Shown: one piece after another, positions 5,139 to 12,539 of the stretch | Layout of the letters: each line of letters opens with the position of its first letter | Position numbering within the stretch: position 1 is the first letter of the stretch | Assembly (NCBI GenBank): GCA_020722265.1 | Contig: DYLA01000006.1 | Location: forward strand, 1-38,446 | Source of the DNA: Anaerolinea sp. | GTDB taxonomy: Bacteria > Chloroflexota > Anaerolineae > UBA4142 | DNA length: 38,446 nucleotides | Reading direction: 5' to 3' | Made by a program: the position numbers and the translations under genes | The notes under the pieces: model-generated | Seen by the model: the letters and a program-made list of their open reading frames with translations, nothing else | What the model was told of the DNA's origin: nothing | Database searches by the model: none

Positions 5139-7697
5139 TCACAGCACACTCACCGGATCCACATCCACGCGCCAACCGAGCGGCAACGCGAGATCGGCGA
5201 TGAGGACGTGCGGCGCGAGCCCGCGCACAATGATTTGATAGCGATACTCGCCGCGTACGCGCCGAAAGAACGCGGGCACGGGTCCGATCAAATCGAGCGC
5301 GGGCAAGCCGCGCTGCGCAAGGCGCGTTTGCAACACCCCACGCACGCGCGCCGATTCTTGTTGGGCGCGCGTTTCGTTCGTGTGATGATAGATTAGCCGA
5401 ATCAGCCGATTGAACGGCGGATAGCCCTGCTCGCGGCGAAACGCGATCTCCCGGGCGTAGAACGCGCCGTAATCGTGTACGGACGCGGCGACGATCGCGT
5501 AATGCTCGGGGTTGTACGTTTGCACGATCACTTTGCCGCCCAGTGGACTACGCCCGGCGCGACCCGCGACTTGAGTGAGCAGTTGGAACGTTCGCTCGCC
5601 CGCGCGAAAATCGGGCAAGTTGAGCGCGGTGTCCGCGCTGACGACACCAACGAGCGTGACGAATGGCAAATCGAGTCCCTTGGCGATCATCTGCGTCCCA
5701 ATCAAAATGTCGGCTTGGCGCGCGATGAATTTTTCCAGAATCGCCTCGTGCGCGTCCTTGCCGCGCGTCACATCCCAATCCCAGCGCAGCGTGCGTGCGG
5801 TCGGAAAGCGCGCGCGAATTTCTGCCTCCACTTTTTCCGTGCCAATCCCAAAGTAGCGGATGCGCGCGCTGCCGCACAGCGGGCATTTCGTCGGCACGCG
5901 GTCGCGACGATTGCAGTGATGACACACCAGTTGCTCACCGCTGCCGTGATACGTCATTGGGTTCTCGCAGCGGCGACACTTGAAGACATAGCCGCAATCG
6001 CGACACAAAATAAACGTCGCCGTGCCGCGCCGATTCAAGAACAAAATCACTTGCTCGCGCGCCGCCAACACGCGCGCCATCTCGCGCTGGAGCGCGCGCG
6101 AAAACATCGAACGATTCCCCGCTTTCAGTTCAGCGCGCATGTCAACGATTTCGACGGGTGGCAGTTCGAGGTAGGGCGCATCCGCACCCACGGGGGCTGA
6201 CTCCTGACCGCTGACCGCTGGCTGCTGACCTCTGTGCTCTGACCTCTGTTCTCTGACCTCTGCCCGATGTCCCATCACTCGCTTGGGCAATTCCAACAAC
6301 ACCAACTCGCCGCGCGTCGCGCGATAGTACGTCTCCACATCGGGCGTCGCGTCTCCCAGGATCACGACGGCGCCCGCGCGTCGCGCCAGTTCCAACGCGA
6401 CCTCGCGCGCGTGATAGCGCGGCGATTCGGCTTGCTTGTACGACGGATCGTGTTCCTCGTCCAGCGCGATCAAGCCCAGTTGTGGGAGCGGTGCGAAGAG
6501 CGCGGAGCGCGCGCCGATCACCACATCCACCAACCCATCGCGGCAGCGCCGCCACGTATCGTACCGTTCGCCGATGCTCAAGCGTGAGTGAATGACGGCG
6601 ATGCGTTCAAAGCGCGCGCCAAAGCGGCGAATCGTTTGCGGCGTGAGCGAAATTTCGGGGACGAGGACGATGCCTTGTTTGCCTTGCGCGATGATTTCCG
6701 CGAGCGCGCGCATGTAGATTTCCGTTTTGCCGCTTCCCGTGACGCCGTGGAGTAAGAAGGCGGCGGGTTTCACCGTTTCGGGCTGCTGGTTGGGCGGGCT
6801 TGGAACCTGAAGACTGGAAAGTATCTCATTCCACGCGCGCGCTTGTCCCTCCGTCAACTGGGGCGGTGCGGCGGTCTCGAACGCGCGTCCTGCCAGCGAA
6901 TCGCGCCACGTCTCGTGCGCTTCCAGCGCGACGACACCCGCCGCCTCCAATTTTTGCAAATCGGCGCGCGTGCCGCCCGTTTCCGCGTACACCGCGCTGA
7001 CCCAGACCGCGTTCGCTTCGCGGCGCAGAAATTCGACGATGGCGGTGTAGCGCGGCGCGGCGCGCGATTGCGCGAGGGCGTCGGTAAGTTGCGCGCGGAG
7101 GAGACGAACTGTTTGGATGCGCTTGGGCTTGGCTTGCGCGGGCGTGATAACGGCGCGTTTGACGATGATGCCGCGCCGCGCCAGCGGTTCGATGGCGGCG
7201 TGAAGTTCGCGCGGGAGGGCGCGCACTTTGGTTTCGCCCGCACGCGCGAGGAATTCGACGAGCGCGGTTTGTTTTTCGGTGAGATTGTCGCGTGGCGCGT
7301 TCGGCGCGAGTGCGAGCAGGATTTCGGTTTGCTGTTCGACGCCAGGGGGTAGCATCAAGGCGAGTGCGTCGTGGAGTGGGCAGAGGTACGTGCGCGCGAT
7401 CCAGCGCGCCAGATCGAGGTGCAGCGGGGAGAGAAACGGGCGCACCTCCACGATCGCTTCGATGTCCTTGGTCTGTTCGACGGGTGACGTATCGCTGAAC
7501 GCGATGACGATGCCCTGCAATCGCCGCGCGCCGAACGGCACCCATACCAGTTGTCCCAGCGCGATGGAATCGGCGAGGGGCGCGGGAATTGCGTAGGTGA
7601 ACGCGCGTTCGCGCAGCGATTCCGCCGCGGCGCGCTCTGCCTCGCTGGGTTTGCCGATCGTCAACGGCGTGTTGACGACGATTTGTGCGTATTTCAT
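5139..7697 (-). CDS. priA: Primosomal protein N' (replication restart helicase)
   Basis: An 852-residue superfamily 2 helicase that reloads the replisome at collapsed forks. The N-terminal 3'-DNA-end-binding domain is followed by Walker A (Gly-Val-Thr-Gly-Ser-Gly-Lys-Thr, about residue 318), Asp-Glu-Glu-His, a zinc region with eight cysteines in four Cys-x2-Cys pairs, then Gly-Thr-Glu-Lys-Val-Glu and Gln-Val-Ala-Gly-Arg-Ala-Gly-Arg. I start it at the ATG at 7697; a TTG four codons earlier is in frame but has no better ribosome site. Between the DEEH motif and the zinc region there is an insertion of about 22 residues encoded by nine 7-nt repeats (6197-6262). A 15-bp hairpin ends only 13 nt before the ATG. 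Confidence 0.95.
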   Translation of the reverse strand: MKYAQIVVNTPLTIGKPSEAERAAAESLRERAFTYAIPAPLADSIALGQLVWVPFGARRLQGIVIAFSDTSPVEQTKDIEAIVEVRPFLSPLHLDLARWIARTYLCPLHDALALMLPPGVEQQTEILLALAPNAPRDNLTEKQTALVEFLARAGETKVRALPRELHAAIEPLARRGIIVKRAVITPAQAKPKRIQTVRLLRAQLTDALAQSRAAPRYTAIVEFLRREANAVWVSAVYAETGGTRADLQKLEAAGVVALEAHETWRDSLAGRAFETAAPPQLTEGQARAWNEILSSLQVPSPPNQQPETVKPAAFLLHGVTGSGKTEIYMRALAEIIAQGKQGIVLVPEISLTPQTIRRFGARFERIAVIHSRLSIGERYDTWRRCRDGLVDVVIGARSALFAPLPQLGLIALDEEHDPSYKQAESPRYHAREVALELARRAGAVVILGDATPDVETYYRATRGELVLLELPKRVMGHRAEVREQRSEHRGQQPAVSGQESAPVGADAPYLELPPVEIVDMRAELKAGNRSMFSRALQREMARVLAAREQVILFLNRRGTATFILCRDCGYVFKCRRCENPMTYHGSGEQLVCHHCNRRDRVPTKCPLCGSARIRYFGIGTEKVEAEIRARFPTARTLRWDWDVTRGKDAHEAILEKFIARQADILIGTQMIAKGLDLPFVTLVGVVSADTALNLPDFRAGERTFQLLTQVAGRAGRSPLGGKVIVQTYNPEHYAIVAASVHDYGAFYAREIAFRREQGYPPFNRLIRLIYHHTNETRAQQESARVRGVLQTRLAQRGLPALDLIGPVPAFFRRVRGEYRYQIIVRGLAPHVLIADLALPLGWRVDVDPVSVL
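6197..6262. repeat. Nine 7-nt tandem repeats inside priA
   Basis: Plus-strand units CTGACTC, CTGACCG, CTGACCG, CTGGCTG, CTGACCT, CTGTGCT, CTGACCT, CTGTTCT, CTGACCT. Three units make 21 nt, so the array stays in frame and encodes a polar stretch rich in Arg, Gln, Ser and Glu. Confidence 0.85.
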
Positions 7698-7710
7698 CAG
7701 TGAGACCAAA

Positions 7711-7758: not shown

Positions 7759-8628
7759 TCACTGTTTACTTTTGTACACGCCCACCGCCATATACCCCAC
7801 CACGTAGTTGGCGTGCGCGCCTTCCCCCGTCACGTCGCCTGAATTCGTGCGGTGCAGAACGCGCACGCGATCCGCGCCCAGCGCGCGCGCGGCGAGCAGC
7901 GCGGTGAGGATCGGCGCGTCGCCGCAGGCGCGACATTCGCCGTCTTGCCAGAAATAACGCGCCAACCCCTCCACATCGAACGCGGCGATCAGTTCTTCTG
8001 TGCGCGCGTCGAATTTTTTGACGGCGGCGTAATCGTCCAGATGCGACAAATCGGAGGAGGCGACGAAGAGGACGCGCCGGGTGCGCGCGAGTTCCGCGAG
8101 CGCGGCGGCAAGTTGTTCGCACACGGGACGCGCCGACTCGCCGACGATGTAGAACGGCAAGCCGAGCATCAGCGGCACCAGTTTGAACGCGCCGAGCGTG
8201 CGCTGGAGGAAGGGCAATTGAATTTCGAGCGAGTGTTCGTGGTCTTGCGTCACGCGCCGCGCGGCGACGCGCCCGGTGAGCGCGTCGATGAATTCTGTGT
8301 CTAGTTCCACTTGACCGAGCGGCGTCCAGTAATATTTTTGGGTGCTGATGGCGAGCGCGCCAAAATCGTCGCGATGGGTGGGGCCCAGCAAAACAACCGT
8401 GTCGTACGTGCGACCTTGGAGTTGACGATACGCGTACGCGGCGGTTGATCCCGAATAAGGATAACCCGCGTGTGGAGAAATCAAAGCGATGAGTTCATCG
8501 TTCGTCGGAAAGAATTCCGCGCGCGCAAGATAATCGTCAACGGTGCGGCGCAACGCTTCGGGCGAACCGGGATACCACGAACCCGCGATGAGCGAGGGGC
8601 GCACATCGTCACGCCAGCGAGTCGGCAT
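7759..8628 (-). CDS. MEMO1 family protein (AmmeMemoRadiSam system protein B type)
   Basis: A 289-residue protein of the MEMO1/AmmB family, related in fold to class III extradiol dioxygenases. The core motifs are Ser-Pro-His-Ala-Gly-Tyr-Pro-Tyr-Ser-Gly at about 51-60, Leu-Leu-Gly-Pro-Thr-His, Asp-His-Glu-His-Ser-Leu-Glu-Ile-Gln-Leu-Pro-Phe-Leu, Ala-Ser-Ser-Asp-Leu-Ser-His, and a late Cys-x2-Cys-Gly. The histidines are the metal ligands of related dioxygenases; human MEMO1 binds reduced metal. GGAGGTG stands 5 nt before the ATG. The usual partners, an AMMECR1-domain protein and a COG1180 radical SAM enzyme, are not adjacent. The reaction of the bacterial family is unknown. Confidence 0.88.
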   Translation of the reverse strand: MPTRWRDDVRPSLIAGSWYPGSPEALRRTVDDYLARAEFFPTNDELIALISPHAGYPYSGSTAAYAYRQLQGRTYDTVVLLGPTHRDDFGALAISTQKYYWTPLGQVELDTEFIDALTGRVAARRVTQDHEHSLEIQLPFLQRTLGAFKLVPLMLGLPFYIVGESARPVCEQLAAALAELARTRRVLFVASSDLSHLDDYAAVKKFDARTEELIAAFDVEGLARYFWQDGECRACGDAPILTALLAARALGADRVRVLHRTNSGDVTGEGAHANYVVGYMAVGVYKSKQ

Positions 8629-8649: not shown

Positions 8650-8680
8650 AGTAGGGACGAATCGCTGGACCGTCTCTACT
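8650..8680. repeat. Hairpin overlapping the infA stop codon
   Basis: AGTAGGGACG (8650-8659) pairs with CGTCTCTACT (8671-8680) with one G-T pair. The right arm includes the TAG stop of infA. The form, an arm with GTAGRGACG around a short centre, looks like a dispersed palindromic repeat. Confidence 0.6.
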
Positions 8681-8924
8681 TTTTGAACCGATACGTGATG
8701 CGTCCGCGCGTCAAATCGTACGGCGAAAGTTCCACCGTCACGCGGTCGCCCAACAGGATGCGGATATAGTACATTCGCATCTTGCCCGAAATGTGCGCGA
8801 GGACGCTGTGGCCGCTATCGAGTTGGACGCGGAACATGGCGTTGGGCAACGCTTCGGTGACGACGCCTTCGGCTTCGATCACGTCTTTTTTCTTTTTGTC
8901 TTCACGTTCTGCCGTTTTAGGCAT
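8676..8924 (-). CDS. infA: Translation initiation factor IF-1
   Basis: An 82-residue S1-like OB-fold protein that occupies the ribosomal A site during initiation. The core matches IF-1: [15 protein letters not shown], then [13 protein letters not shown] and a closing [10 protein letters not shown]. A lysine-rich N-terminal tail of about 13 residues makes it longer than the usual 72. AGGAG precedes the ATG, and a small hairpin (ACGGACG and CGTCCGT, 8947-8963) lies in the leader. It is away from the ribosomal protein and secY cluster where infA is often found. Confidence 0.95.
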
Positions 8925-9056: not shown

Positions 9057-9083
9057 TTGAGACGCCCCGCCGGGGCGTCTCAA
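9057..9083. repeat. Perfect palindrome overlapping the ftsK stop codon
   Basis: TTGAGACGCCCCG, a central C, and CGGGGCGTCTCAA make a 27-nt perfect palindrome whose right arm contains the ftsK TGA. No T tract follows on the minus strand, so it is better read as a dispersed hairpin repeat or 3'-end stabiliser than a classical terminator. Confidence 0.75.
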
Positions 9084-11287
9084 CTCGACGCGGGCAACAC
9101 GACGCGCGATTTGCCGCCCCCTTCGTCGGGTCCGACGATGCCGCGCTCTTCCAACTGATCCATCAGGCGTGCCGCGCGCGGATAGCCAATGCCGAGTTTG
9201 CGCTGCAGAAATGAAATCGAAGTGCGGTCCGATTGGCGCACGATGGCGATGGCTTGTTCGATCAGGTCCTCGTCGCTCCCCTCTTTGGTGCTGTCAAGGT
9301 CTTTCCACGGTGCTTGGCGCGCGATGTCGCGCAAATCGGTGATGGCTTTGTCGCGCCAAAAGTGAACGAGCCGCGCGAGTTCGTCATCGGACACAAAGCA
9401 GCCCTGCAAGCGCATCAACTTGGACGAATCGCTTGCCATATACAGCATATCGCCGCGGCCCAGCAATTTTTCCGCGCCCAGTGTGTCCAGCACGACGCGC
9501 GAGTCTACGCTGCTCGTCACCGCGAACGAAATGCGCGAGGGGAAATTCGCCTTGATCAGCCCCGTGACCACATCCACCGAAGGACGCTGCGTGGCGATGA
9601 CCAGATGAATTCCCGTGGCGCGCGCCATCTGCGCGAGGCGCGTCAACAATTTTTCCGTCTCCTCGGGCGCGACGAGCATCAGGTCGGCGAGTTCGTCAAT
9701 GAGCGCGACGATGAACGGCATCGTGTCGCCGTGCGCCTTGTTCATCTTTTCGTTGAAGGCGTCAATGTTGCGCACTTTTTCTTTGGCAAACAAGGTAAAG
9801 CGATTGTCCATCTCGCGCGTCAGCCAGCGCAGGCACGGCACCACCTCGTTCACGTTGACGATGACGGGGCCCAAGAGATGCGGGATGTCGTTGAAATTTA
9901 CCAGTTCGACGCGCTTGGGATCAATCATAATCAAGCGCAGATCGTCGGGTGAGTTGTTGAAGAGCAAGCACGCGGTAATCGCGTTGATGCACACGGATTT
10001 GCCCGACCCTGTGGCGCCCGCGATCAAGAGGTGCGGCATCGCGCCCAGATCGGCGACGTTCACCGCGCCAGACACATCGCGCCCCAGTGCGATGGTGAGC
10101 GGGTATTTTTTCTTTTTCGATTTGAAGGTGTCGTCTTCCATCACGCCGCGCAGCGAGACGACCGAGACGGATTGATTGGGCACCTCGATTCCGACGACGG
10201 GTTTGCCCGGCACTGGCGTTTCGATGCGAATCGGCGCGACGGCGAGCGCGAGTTCCAAATCGTGTTGCAGGGCGGCGATGCGATTGACCGAGACTTTGCG
10301 TGGGCGGATTCGTCCATCGCTGCTGCGCCGTTCGATGAAGCCGGGTTCCAAGCCGAATTGCGTGACGGTGGGTCCCGCGTGAATTTCGACGACTTTGGCG
10401 GGAATGCCAAAGTTGGCGAGTGTTTCTTCGATGAGGCGCGCTTTGCGATTCGCGTCGGTTTCGCCGTACTTGGCTTCGCTCGCCAAATCGAGCAAGTCGA
10501 GTGGCGGGAGCGCGGGGGCGCGCCGGCGCGGGAGCCCGCGTGGAGTCAAAACGGCAGGTGGCGTCGCGGGAGTTTTGGGCGCGGGTTTGATGCCAAAGAC
10601 CGGGCGCGCGGCTGACGCAGGCATCGGCGGTGCGGAAGGTTGCGCAGGGGGCGTGGGAGGGGGAGTCGCAAGCGTCGGCGCGGGTTTTCGCTCCATCGGT
10701 TTTGCCATCGGCGCGGTGGGACCTGTCTGTCCGGCGCGCGCGGCGAGTGCGTCGCTCCACGCGCGCAGACGCGCCGCGCTCATTCCCAGAATCGCCGGCA
10801 GCGTGGCGAGTCCCACCGCGCCCAATGCGATTTGCGCCCCGCTCACGCCGACGAGGGATGCCAAGCCGTACCCAATCGCCCAGCCGATAAAGCCGCCCCC
10901 TGCGCCGGTGTACGCCAGCAGAGCCGGGTCGTTGGTAGGGGTGAAGAGATGAATCAACGCGAGGAGAATGGCGAAGAGAATTTCACCGGCAAAAACCCTG
11001 CCCCATTCCAATGCCGCCACCTCTTCGCCGCGACGCAGCAAGAACGCGCCTGCTCCAAAGACGAAGAACGGAAGCGCAAACGCTCCCCAGCCAACGAGCC
11101 GCAGCCAAAGGAATGACCACGCCTCGCTGACGAAACCGGAGGTGACGCGTAGCAGCGTCAGCAGCGTCAGCCCGCCAAGCAAGAACAGAGCCATAGCGAT
11201 CATCGCGCGCTGGCGCGTCGCGTCGATCTTCAGCCCCACGCGAGAGAAAATATCTTCCGGTTGCTCTCTGGCTCGCCGATGAGTCAT
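9080..11287 (-). CDS. ftsK: DNA translocase FtsK/SpoIIIE
   Basis: A 735-residue septal DNA pump for chromosome segregation. About four membrane helices fill residues 28-170, followed by an Ala/Pro-rich linker (190-260), the alpha/beta motor with Walker A Gly-Ala-Thr-Gly-Ser-Gly-Lys-Ser near 425 and Walker B Ile-Asp-Glu-Leu-Ala-Asp-Leu, then Ala-Thr-Gln-Arg-Pro-Ser-Val-Asp-Val and the C-terminal gamma winged helix (Ser-Phe-Leu-Gln-Arg-Lys-Leu-x-Ile-Gly-Tyr-x-Arg-Ala). The linker is short for the family. I start it at the ATG at 11287; a GTG one codon earlier is equally close. The S1-domain gene ends 7 nt upstream, so the two are cotranscribed. Confidence 0.96.
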   Translation of the reverse strand: MTHRRAREQPEDIFSRVGLKIDATRQRAMIAMALFLLGGLTLLTLLRVTSGFVSEAWSFLWLRLVGWGAFALPFFVFGAGAFLLRRGEEVAALEWGRVFAGEILFAILLALIHLFTPTNDPALLAYTGAGGGFIGWAIGYGLASLVGVSGAQIALGAVGLATLPAILGMSAARLRAWSDALAARAGQTGPTAPMAKPMERKPAPTLATPPPTPPAQPSAPPMPASAARPVFGIKPAPKTPATPPAVLTPRGLPRRRAPALPPLDLLDLASEAKYGETDANRKARLIEETLANFGIPAKVVEIHAGPTVTQFGLEPGFIERRSSDGRIRPRKVSVNRIAALQHDLELALAVAPIRIETPVPGKPVVGIEVPNQSVSVVSLRGVMEDDTFKSKKKKYPLTIALGRDVSGAVNVADLGAMPHLLIAGATGSGKSVCINAITACLLFNNSPDDLRLIMIDPKRVELVNFNDIPHLLGPVIVNVNEVVPCLRWLTREMDNRFTLFAKEKVRNIDAFNEKMNKAHGDTMPFIVALIDELADLMLVAPEETEKLLTRLAQMARATGIHLVIATQRPSVDVVTGLIKANFPSRISFAVTSSVDSRVVLDTLGAEKLLGRGDMLYMASDSSKLMRLQGCFVSDDELARLVHFWRDKAITDLRDIARQAPWKDLDSTKEGSDEDLIEQAIAIVRQSDRTSISFLQRKLGIGYPRAARLMDQLEERGIVGPDEGGGKSRVVLPASS

Positions 11288-11294
11288 CACCTAC

Positions 11295-12299
11295 TCATTC
11301 CGAGAGAATCAAACTCTCCCAATAACCGGGGTCGAGCGGCGGGGGTGGTGGAACTCGATGCCGATTCGTTTGCCGCGTCCCTGCGTGTTCTGTTTTCGAT
11401 TCATTACGGCGCAGGCTCAACCGGGCGCGTTGCTGCGCGGCGTCAATTTCTACCACACGCACACGCACCGTTTGCCCTTCTTGGACGACCTCGCTGGGGT
11501 GCGTGAACTCGCCTTCGATCTCCGAAATATGCACCAGGCCTTCGACACCTTCGGCAAGGCGAACGAACGCCCCAAAGGGCACGAGCGTCGTGATGGTGCC
11601 TTCCACCCAGTCACCGGGACGCGTCTTGTCCGCGATCTCTTGCCACGGATTCGGCTGGAGTCTTTTGAGACTGCACGCGATCCGTTTCTGCTCGCGGTCC
11701 ACCTCGATGATGTACACCTCCACTTCTTGCCCGGGCGATAGGATGTCGCGCGGGTGGGCGACGTACTGCCACGACAGTTCGGAGACGTGGATCAATCCTT
11801 CGACGCCGCCGAGATCAACGAACGCGCCAAAATCGGTCACGTTGCGGACGATGCCGTGTCGCGTCTGGTTCGGTTCGATGGTCGCCAACAACTGCTCGGC
11901 GCGCGAGGGGGGCGGGTTGACGACACGTTCGGAGAGAATCAGCCGATTGCGCGCGCGGTCGAATTCGATGACCTTGACGCGTACGTTCGAGCCGACATAA
12001 CGCGCTAATTCTTGCCGGCGCGCGTCCTCCGTCACTTGGCGCGACAACCCAGTCAACTGCGATGCCGGGACAAAGCCGCGCACATCGCCCAAATCCACAA
12101 GCAAGCCTCCACGATTGTATCCCACGACGCGCAGTTCGAGTATCGTGCCTTGCGCGTAACTAGTCTCGGCAATCGTCCAGCCGCTGGGGGCTGGTGGTTC
12201 TGGCGGCGCGGCGTTCGAAGCGAGTGGCGTGCGCGCCCCTAACAAGATGTGCCAATACTCTTCGTCCGGTGCTTCTTCCCATGGCTTGACCTCAGACAT
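11295..12299 (-). CDS. rpsA: S1 domain RNA-binding protein (ribosomal protein S1-like)
   Basis: A 334-residue protein with three S1 OB-folds after an acidic N-terminal tail. The first repeat is divergent (from about residue 50), the second has Gly-Ala-Phe-Val-Asp-Leu-Gly-Gly-Val-Glu-Gly-Leu-Ile-His, the third Gly-Ala-Phe-Val-Arg-Leu-Ala-Glu-Gly-Val-Glu-Gly-Leu-Val-His. Short S1 proteins with three or four repeats serve as ribosomal S1 in Gram-positive and Chloroflexota-type genomes. The start is the ATG at 12299 with GGGAGG 10 nt before; a frame extending to 12566 runs through the promoter at 12510-12539 and is not coding. The leader of about 200 nt is structured. It could also be a general S1-type RNA-binding protein not bound to the ribosome. 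Confidence 0.85.
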   Translation of the reverse strand: MSEVKPWEEAPDEEYWHILLGARTPLASNAAPPEPPAPSGWTIAETSYAQGTILELRVVGYNRGGLLVDLGDVRGFVPASQLTGLSRQVTEDARRQELARYVGSNVRVKVIEFDRARNRLILSERVVNPPPSRAEQLLATIEPNQTRHGIVRNVTDFGAFVDLGGVEGLIHVSELSWQYVAHPRDILSPGQEVEVYIIEVDREQKRIACSLKRLQPNPWQEIADKTRPGDWVEGTITTLVPFGAFVRLAEGVEGLVHISEIEGEFTHPSEVVQEGQTVRVRVVEIDAAQQRARLSLRRNESKTEHAGTRQTNRHRVPPPPPLDPGYWESLILSE

Positions 12300-12314
12300 T
12301 TGCGCTGAACCTCC

Positions 12315-12486
12315 CAACCTATCCGCAAACAAAAAATCGGTTATCCTGCCCTCGCTGGGGTCTGCGACCCGCGCGTGTCCGCGAAGGGTGACGCGCCTCG
12401 ACTTTGCACGAGGATGCGTCGGTGGAGTAACCGAATTACAATCTGCTAACCAACTCTTCGCCCAAATCGAAAAGCAACCTATCCGC
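12315..12486 (-). repeat. Direct 12-nt repeat in the S1 leader
   Basis: GCGGATAGGTTG (minus strand) occurs at 12486-12475, soon after the transcription start, and again at 12326-12315, directly before the GGGAGG ribosome site. The two copies flank the folded domain. Confidence 0.6.
12331..12433 (-). ncRNA. Structured leader RNA: three-way junction plus U tract
   Basis: On the minus strand CGGTTACTCC (12433-12424) pairs with GGATAACCG (12346-12338) as a closing stem, directly followed by A and six U (12336-12331). Inside are two branches: GACGC..CCTCG with CGAGG..GCGTC (12420-12390) and CCCTTCGC with GCGAGGG (12388-12349), the latter holding a 5-bp hairpin GGGTC-GCA-GACCC (12370-12358). The stem next to the U run could act as a terminator. 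It looks like a riboswitch or ribosomal-protein leader, but I recognise no known family. Confidence 0.55.
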
Positions 12487-12509
12487 GCGACTCTTCCCCA
12501 ACCGATTGT

Positions 12510-12539
12510 ATTATAAGCGGAATGGCGCGAATTTGTCAA
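12510..12539 (-). promoter_or_regulatory. Consensus promoter of the S1-ftsK-infA-priA block
   Basis: Exact TTGACA (12539-12534), an 18-nt spacer and exact TATAAT (12515-12510) on the minus strand. Transcription would start near 12503, giving a leader of about 204 nt before the S1 gene. Confidence 0.85.

Follow-up and report, generated by a model that had tools for sequence, protein, structure and literature searches.

What kind of RNA lies between a perfect promoter and an S1-domain gene of Anaerolinea sp., and what would it control? The stretch of DNA analysed here as a whole, called the window, comprises 38,446 nucleotides of contig DYLA01000006.1 (GCA_020722265.1). On its minus strand, a leader of about 200 nt separates a consensus promoter from a gene for an S1-like protein. 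A preliminary description of this DNA had folded the leader into a three-way junction and had read it as an attenuating riboswitch or an autoregulatory ribosomal-protein leader. The reading favoured here, at a probability of roughly three in four, is that the leader is a transcription attenuator, in which an intrinsic terminator precedes a cluster composed of the S1-like gene, ftsK, infA, a Memo-like gene and priA.

Promoter, leader and gene cluster

The comparison was based on S1-like orthologues, about 60-70% identical, from 12 other genomes of the window's family (f1) and six genomes of its sister family (f2). A further f1 genome (G003, 70% complete) gave no S1-like match, and the remaining 13 f1 genomes, including that of the window, form the sample. 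The promoter agrees with the consensus as completely as had been claimed (Table 1) and was found at all 13 f1 loci, where the leaders span 145-223 nt after TATAAT. When up to three mismatches are allowed, the promoter pattern occurs once per genome in 8 of the 14 f1 genomes. Conservation among the relatives extends to the sequence of the -35/-10 spacer, in which an operator or some unusual promoter contact may reside; it reads AATtCGCGCCATTcCGC (window 12510-12539, f1 loci L133-L140). An exact 12-nt direct repeat, GCGGATAGGTTG, occurs in the window at 12486-12475 and 12326-12315, with one copy within the 5' leader motif and the other just before the Shine-Dalgarno sequence (SD); on inspection by eye, a second copy was not seen in the relatives.

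Table 1. Coordinates of the leader elements and of the genes behind them in the window
Feature	Position	Strand	Remark
Promoter TTGACA-18-TATAAT	12539-12510	-	consensus match 12/12
5' leader motif GTCGCGCGGATAGG	12478..12491	-	same position in most relatives
Upstream box AGTTGGTTAGC, consensus AGTCGGTTG	12445..12455	-	complementary to terminator 3' arm
Terminator stem, 5' arm TTCGGTTACTCC	12424..12435	-	conserved
Two inner arms	12420-12390 and 12388-12349	-	apical stretch of the window; unconserved in relatives
Terminator stem, 3' arm GGATAACCGAT	12336..12346	-	conserved
U6 tract	12331..12336	-	directly after stem
Shine-Dalgarno GGGAGG	12310..12315	-	upstream of S1-like ATG 12299
S1-like gene, 334 aa, three S1 domains	11295..12299	-	ATG 12299
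Paired terminal peptides of the S1-like protein			PWEE..YW / D.GYW.S
ftsK	9080..11290	-	4 bases after S1-like stop codon
infA-like	8676-8924		downstream of ftsK
Memo-like	7759-8628		downstream of infA-like
priA	5139-7709		downstream of Memo-like

The first gene had been described as S1. Its S1 domains stand, but the label of ribosomal protein S1 is insecure, because the protein scores below the bS1 equivalog cut-offs and the window genome encodes another S1 protein (440-aa frame, G000:C8). Among protein matches with named records, the best shows 51% identity and the better ones come mostly from Chloroflexota. In the S1-like proteins of f1, an N-terminal PWEExPDEGYW and a C-terminal PPPPxDxGYWxSL flank the S1 domains.

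The order S1-like, ftsK, IF-1-like, Memo-like and priA is kept at the f1 loci as far as the contig extends, and in f2 for the most part, and since this order behind the leader is conserved, control of several genes is possible. Ten gaps between ftsK and the IF-1 gene (54-240 nt) hold neither a strict promoter-like pattern nor a run of five T, which makes a single transcript from the S1-like gene through priA plausible. Several of these gaps contain strong hairpins without a U-tract. In the window, a long perfect inverted repeat (GTTGAGACGCCCC / GGGGCGTCTCAAC, about 9060-9095), likewise without a U-tract, was observed just after the ftsK stop codon; the corresponding gaps of the relatives hold other hairpins. 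Those of two genomes (L147 and L148) contain long palindromes with GCGAAGCAATC-type ends that are alike between the two and are possibly dispersed repeats.

Conservation of the putative terminator stem

Promoter, closing stem, U-tract and SD were found together in all 13 f1 genomes having the S1-like gene. In each of these leaders, the stem and then the U-tract lie between promoter and start codon, as is required of an attenuator, and SD and ATG follow downstream of the hairpin. The f1 hairpin has the form (A/G)TCGGTT(G/T)TTCC ... GGAA..AACCGATTTTTT. At the f2 loci with a visible promoter region, reading of the sequences by eye revealed a short leader without the hairpin.

The closing stem is selected as RNA, as supported by covariation. 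In the aligned arms, 90.8% of the cells are paired as against 84.0% in shuffled alignments, and the covariation score of the stem is 0.270 as against 0.168 (sd 0.023); none of 500 shuffles attained either the observed percentage or the observed score. The signal collapses when the partner arm is slid along. Two-sided changes were seen at six stem pairs of the aligned f1 arms, one of which (column 4, L011) hinges on the alignment position given to an extra pair. Arms from the same genome pair better than arms swapped between species, and none of 20,000 permutations matched them. When the changes were mapped on the protein tree, stem pair 8 alone was found to take the states U-A, G-C, A-U and G-U, of which A-U is that of the window, and pairs 6, 7, 10 and 11 likewise change on both sides. 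With the bulge corrected in the alignment, 144 of 152 stem cells are paired, and the f1 hairpins have a mean folding z of -4.0. The stem abutting six U that had been proposed from the single sequence is thus present in the window (Table 1) and is borne out by covariation among its relatives. The window stem itself is bulged and has a long apical stretch, and for this reason its terminator may be weak.

The remainder of the three-way junction fared differently. The two inner arms fold in the isolated 103-nt piece (-42.1 kcal/mol, z -2.9 relative to shuffles) and also when the leader is cut off at the U-tract. For the 214-nt transcript, the minimum free energy structure is a different fold without the closing stem (z 0.14), and the whole f1 leaders have a mean folding z of -1.48. 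In the relatives, the stretch between the arms of the stem measures about 7-36 nt, as against 67 nt in the window, and none of the 12 contains a counterpart of the inner arms. Besides the closing stem, RNAalifold on 11 leaders yielded only a helix of 3 pairs, located further 5'. The three-way junction as a conserved unit was therefore rejected: the relatives form a simple long hairpin without the inner arms, and the junction is, judged from these sequences, this genome's decoration of that hairpin. The window is the sole representative of its genus among the sampled genomes, and a genus-level function of its inner arms is possible. More generally, a striking fold of a single sequence can be a local embellishment of a hairpin that is itself simple and conserved.

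Specificity of the hairpin and motifs upstream of it

No Rfam family matches the window leader at gathering score, and a permissive scan gave a single, irrelevant match at an E value of 9, in agreement with the preliminary description, which had been unable to place the leader in a known class. The f1 and f2 genomes were searched with a covariance model (R1) built on the hairpin. One top match per f1 genome was obtained, with E values of 1e-8 to 3e-6, and each lies at the S1-like gene; the six f2 genomes gave no match at E ≤ 0.05. Second matches at E 0.2-0.9 were obtained in several f1 genomes. At E ≤ 0.05, the model also matched a leader in genome G005 (L155, G005:C228) and, in genome G006, a site that is an antisense echo of the palindromic stem. 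The L155 leader, in which GGTGGCACCACG and a terminator-like hairpin precede a gene resembling tryptophanyl-tRNA synthetase, is apparently a T-box. A search of 396 genomes of the class, run with stricter filters that missed two true members, added weak matches, of which the four inspected lie at other genes. The possibility that the hairpin is a dispersed repeat was rejected, the 103 nt being single-copy in the window genome. Within the genomes searched, the predicted leader terminator is family-specific and restricted to the S1-like gene.

Two short motifs were found 5' of the hairpin. Most f1 leaders carry a GTCGCGCGG-like motif some 20 nt downstream of TATAAT, and a copy of GTCGGTTG stands 17-18 nt before the stem in five f1 leaders and nearby in others; the enrichment of both words over shuffles is mild. 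The second of these, the GUCGGUU box, is complementary to the 3' arm of the terminator. Only 76 of 20,000 swaps between genomes paired as well, relatedness being uncontrolled in this comparison. In the window, stem and upstream copy both read GGTTA, and in another f1 leader (L005) both read TCGGTCGTT; in several relatives, the antiterminator pairing is poor or absent. The box is hence best described as a weakly supported candidate for an antiterminator strand that would compete for the 3' arm. Pairing of the 5' GCGCGG motif with the hairpin loop was rejected, since it is no better than that of swapped pairs (2963/20,000). Nor was there support for base pairs between the SD region and any of three leader parts, namely the 5' motif, the upstream segment and the loop. 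Ahead of the hairpin, the f1 leaders show no structure in excess (mean z +0.32), which argues against an aptamer riboswitch.

Proposed attenuation, its alternatives and known systems

Under the attenuator reading, RNA polymerase would start at the consensus promoter and transcribe a leader of roughly 140-220 nt, in which the stem AUCGGUU(G/U)UUCC...GGAA..AACCGAU would form before the U-tract and ahead of the SD and stop part of the transcription. Conserved position, covarying stem and U-tract are observed, and from these we infer that the hairpin terminates transcription. The S1-like gene would then depend on read-through for its expression, as probably would ftsK and the genes downstream. The short conserved motifs and the lack of excess structure upstream make an RNA-binding protein, and not a metabolite, the most likely signal, so that the regulator is probably of this kind. 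By analogy with known systems, the leading candidate would be the S1-like protein itself, acting back on the leader of its own gene, and such a protein might expose or cover the GUCGGUU box competing for the 3' arm. This fuller scheme, a family-specific attenuator worked by the S1-domain protein through the GUCGGUU strand and joining S1-like protein and IF-1 with the FtsK/PriA cluster, is only a tentative proposal and, taken as a whole, unlikely on present evidence.

A fixed, unregulated partial terminator that merely lowers expression of the cluster would also account for the stem as the sole well-supported helix, and no regulator or ligand has been identified; however, two upstream motifs and the promoter spacer are kept, and in some genomes the upstream box follows the stem. 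A constant brake would not require as much, so that this explanation appears doubtful. An independent small RNA of some 100-170 nt, with the S1-like gene served by read-through or another start site, would suit the geometry of promoter and terminator and the occurrence of the element at this locus only in f1. It is rather improbable, as the element always lies directly before the SD of the S1-like gene and its body is poorly conserved beyond the stem and the two motifs, which is unusual for a trans-acting RNA.

An aptamer riboswitch, or a ribosomal-protein leader mimicking rRNA, built on the three-way junction would draw on the folding of closing stem, two arms and U6 in the isolated piece. 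No conserved structured aptamer was found, as the upstream region lacks excess structure and the inner arms are unshared, and no conserved protein-binding RNA structure was detected either, the closing stem alone being well supported; with the negative Rfam result, such a leader is very improbable. Of the preliminary proposal, the attenuator-like cis-acting leader is retained and the riboswitch or ribosomal-protein mimic is not. Leader-peptide attenuation, in which a short upstream frame would couple the position of the ribosome to the terminator, can hardly be credited: some leaders contain short frames with SD-like sequences, but none keeps its position, length or sequence across the f1 leaders, and a leader peptide was rejected.

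The attenuator reading would add a conserved cis-regulatory RNA element without an Rfam match in a little-studied bacterial lineage, and the cluster behind it may link ftsK, infA and priA with an S1-type RNA-binding protein. If this is true, translation (S1-like protein, IF-1) would be joined with chromosome segregation and replication restart (FtsK, PriA).

Attenuators are enriched at operons of RNA-binding proteins, and the rimP-leader was reported as a conserved terminator that lacks an aptamer (Naville and Gautheret 2010, PMC2965389). The S1-like leader terminator resembles it most closely in kind, both having a signature-bearing terminator stem in the 5' UTR of an RNA-binding-protein operon without a larger aptamer. 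Membership in the rimP-leader family was rejected, since operon and signature differ (rimP-nusA-infB and GGGc...gCCC, PMC2965389, as against AUCGG...CCGAU in the S1-like leader). With T-boxes, the leader shares an expression platform of hairpin plus U, and the weaker model match at G005:C228 is T-box-like, whereas the window leader itself has no T-box match in Rfam. The L20 and L10(L12)4 attenuators of B. subtilis (PMC10931766) likewise stand before operons of RNA-binding proteins and are comparable to the attenuation and possible autoregulation proposed here; they differ in that no conserved structured binding site was detected in the S1-like leader. In E. coli rpsA (bS1), an S1-type protein regulates its own mRNA, as may be the case here; that autoregulation is translational and acts at an initiation region that lacks a canonical SD (PMC10931766). 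The S1-like leader, in contrast, has a canonical SD with a terminator-like hairpin before it, and if the S1-like protein controls this leader, S1 autoregulation would here work through transcription attenuation and differ from the translational control of rpsA.
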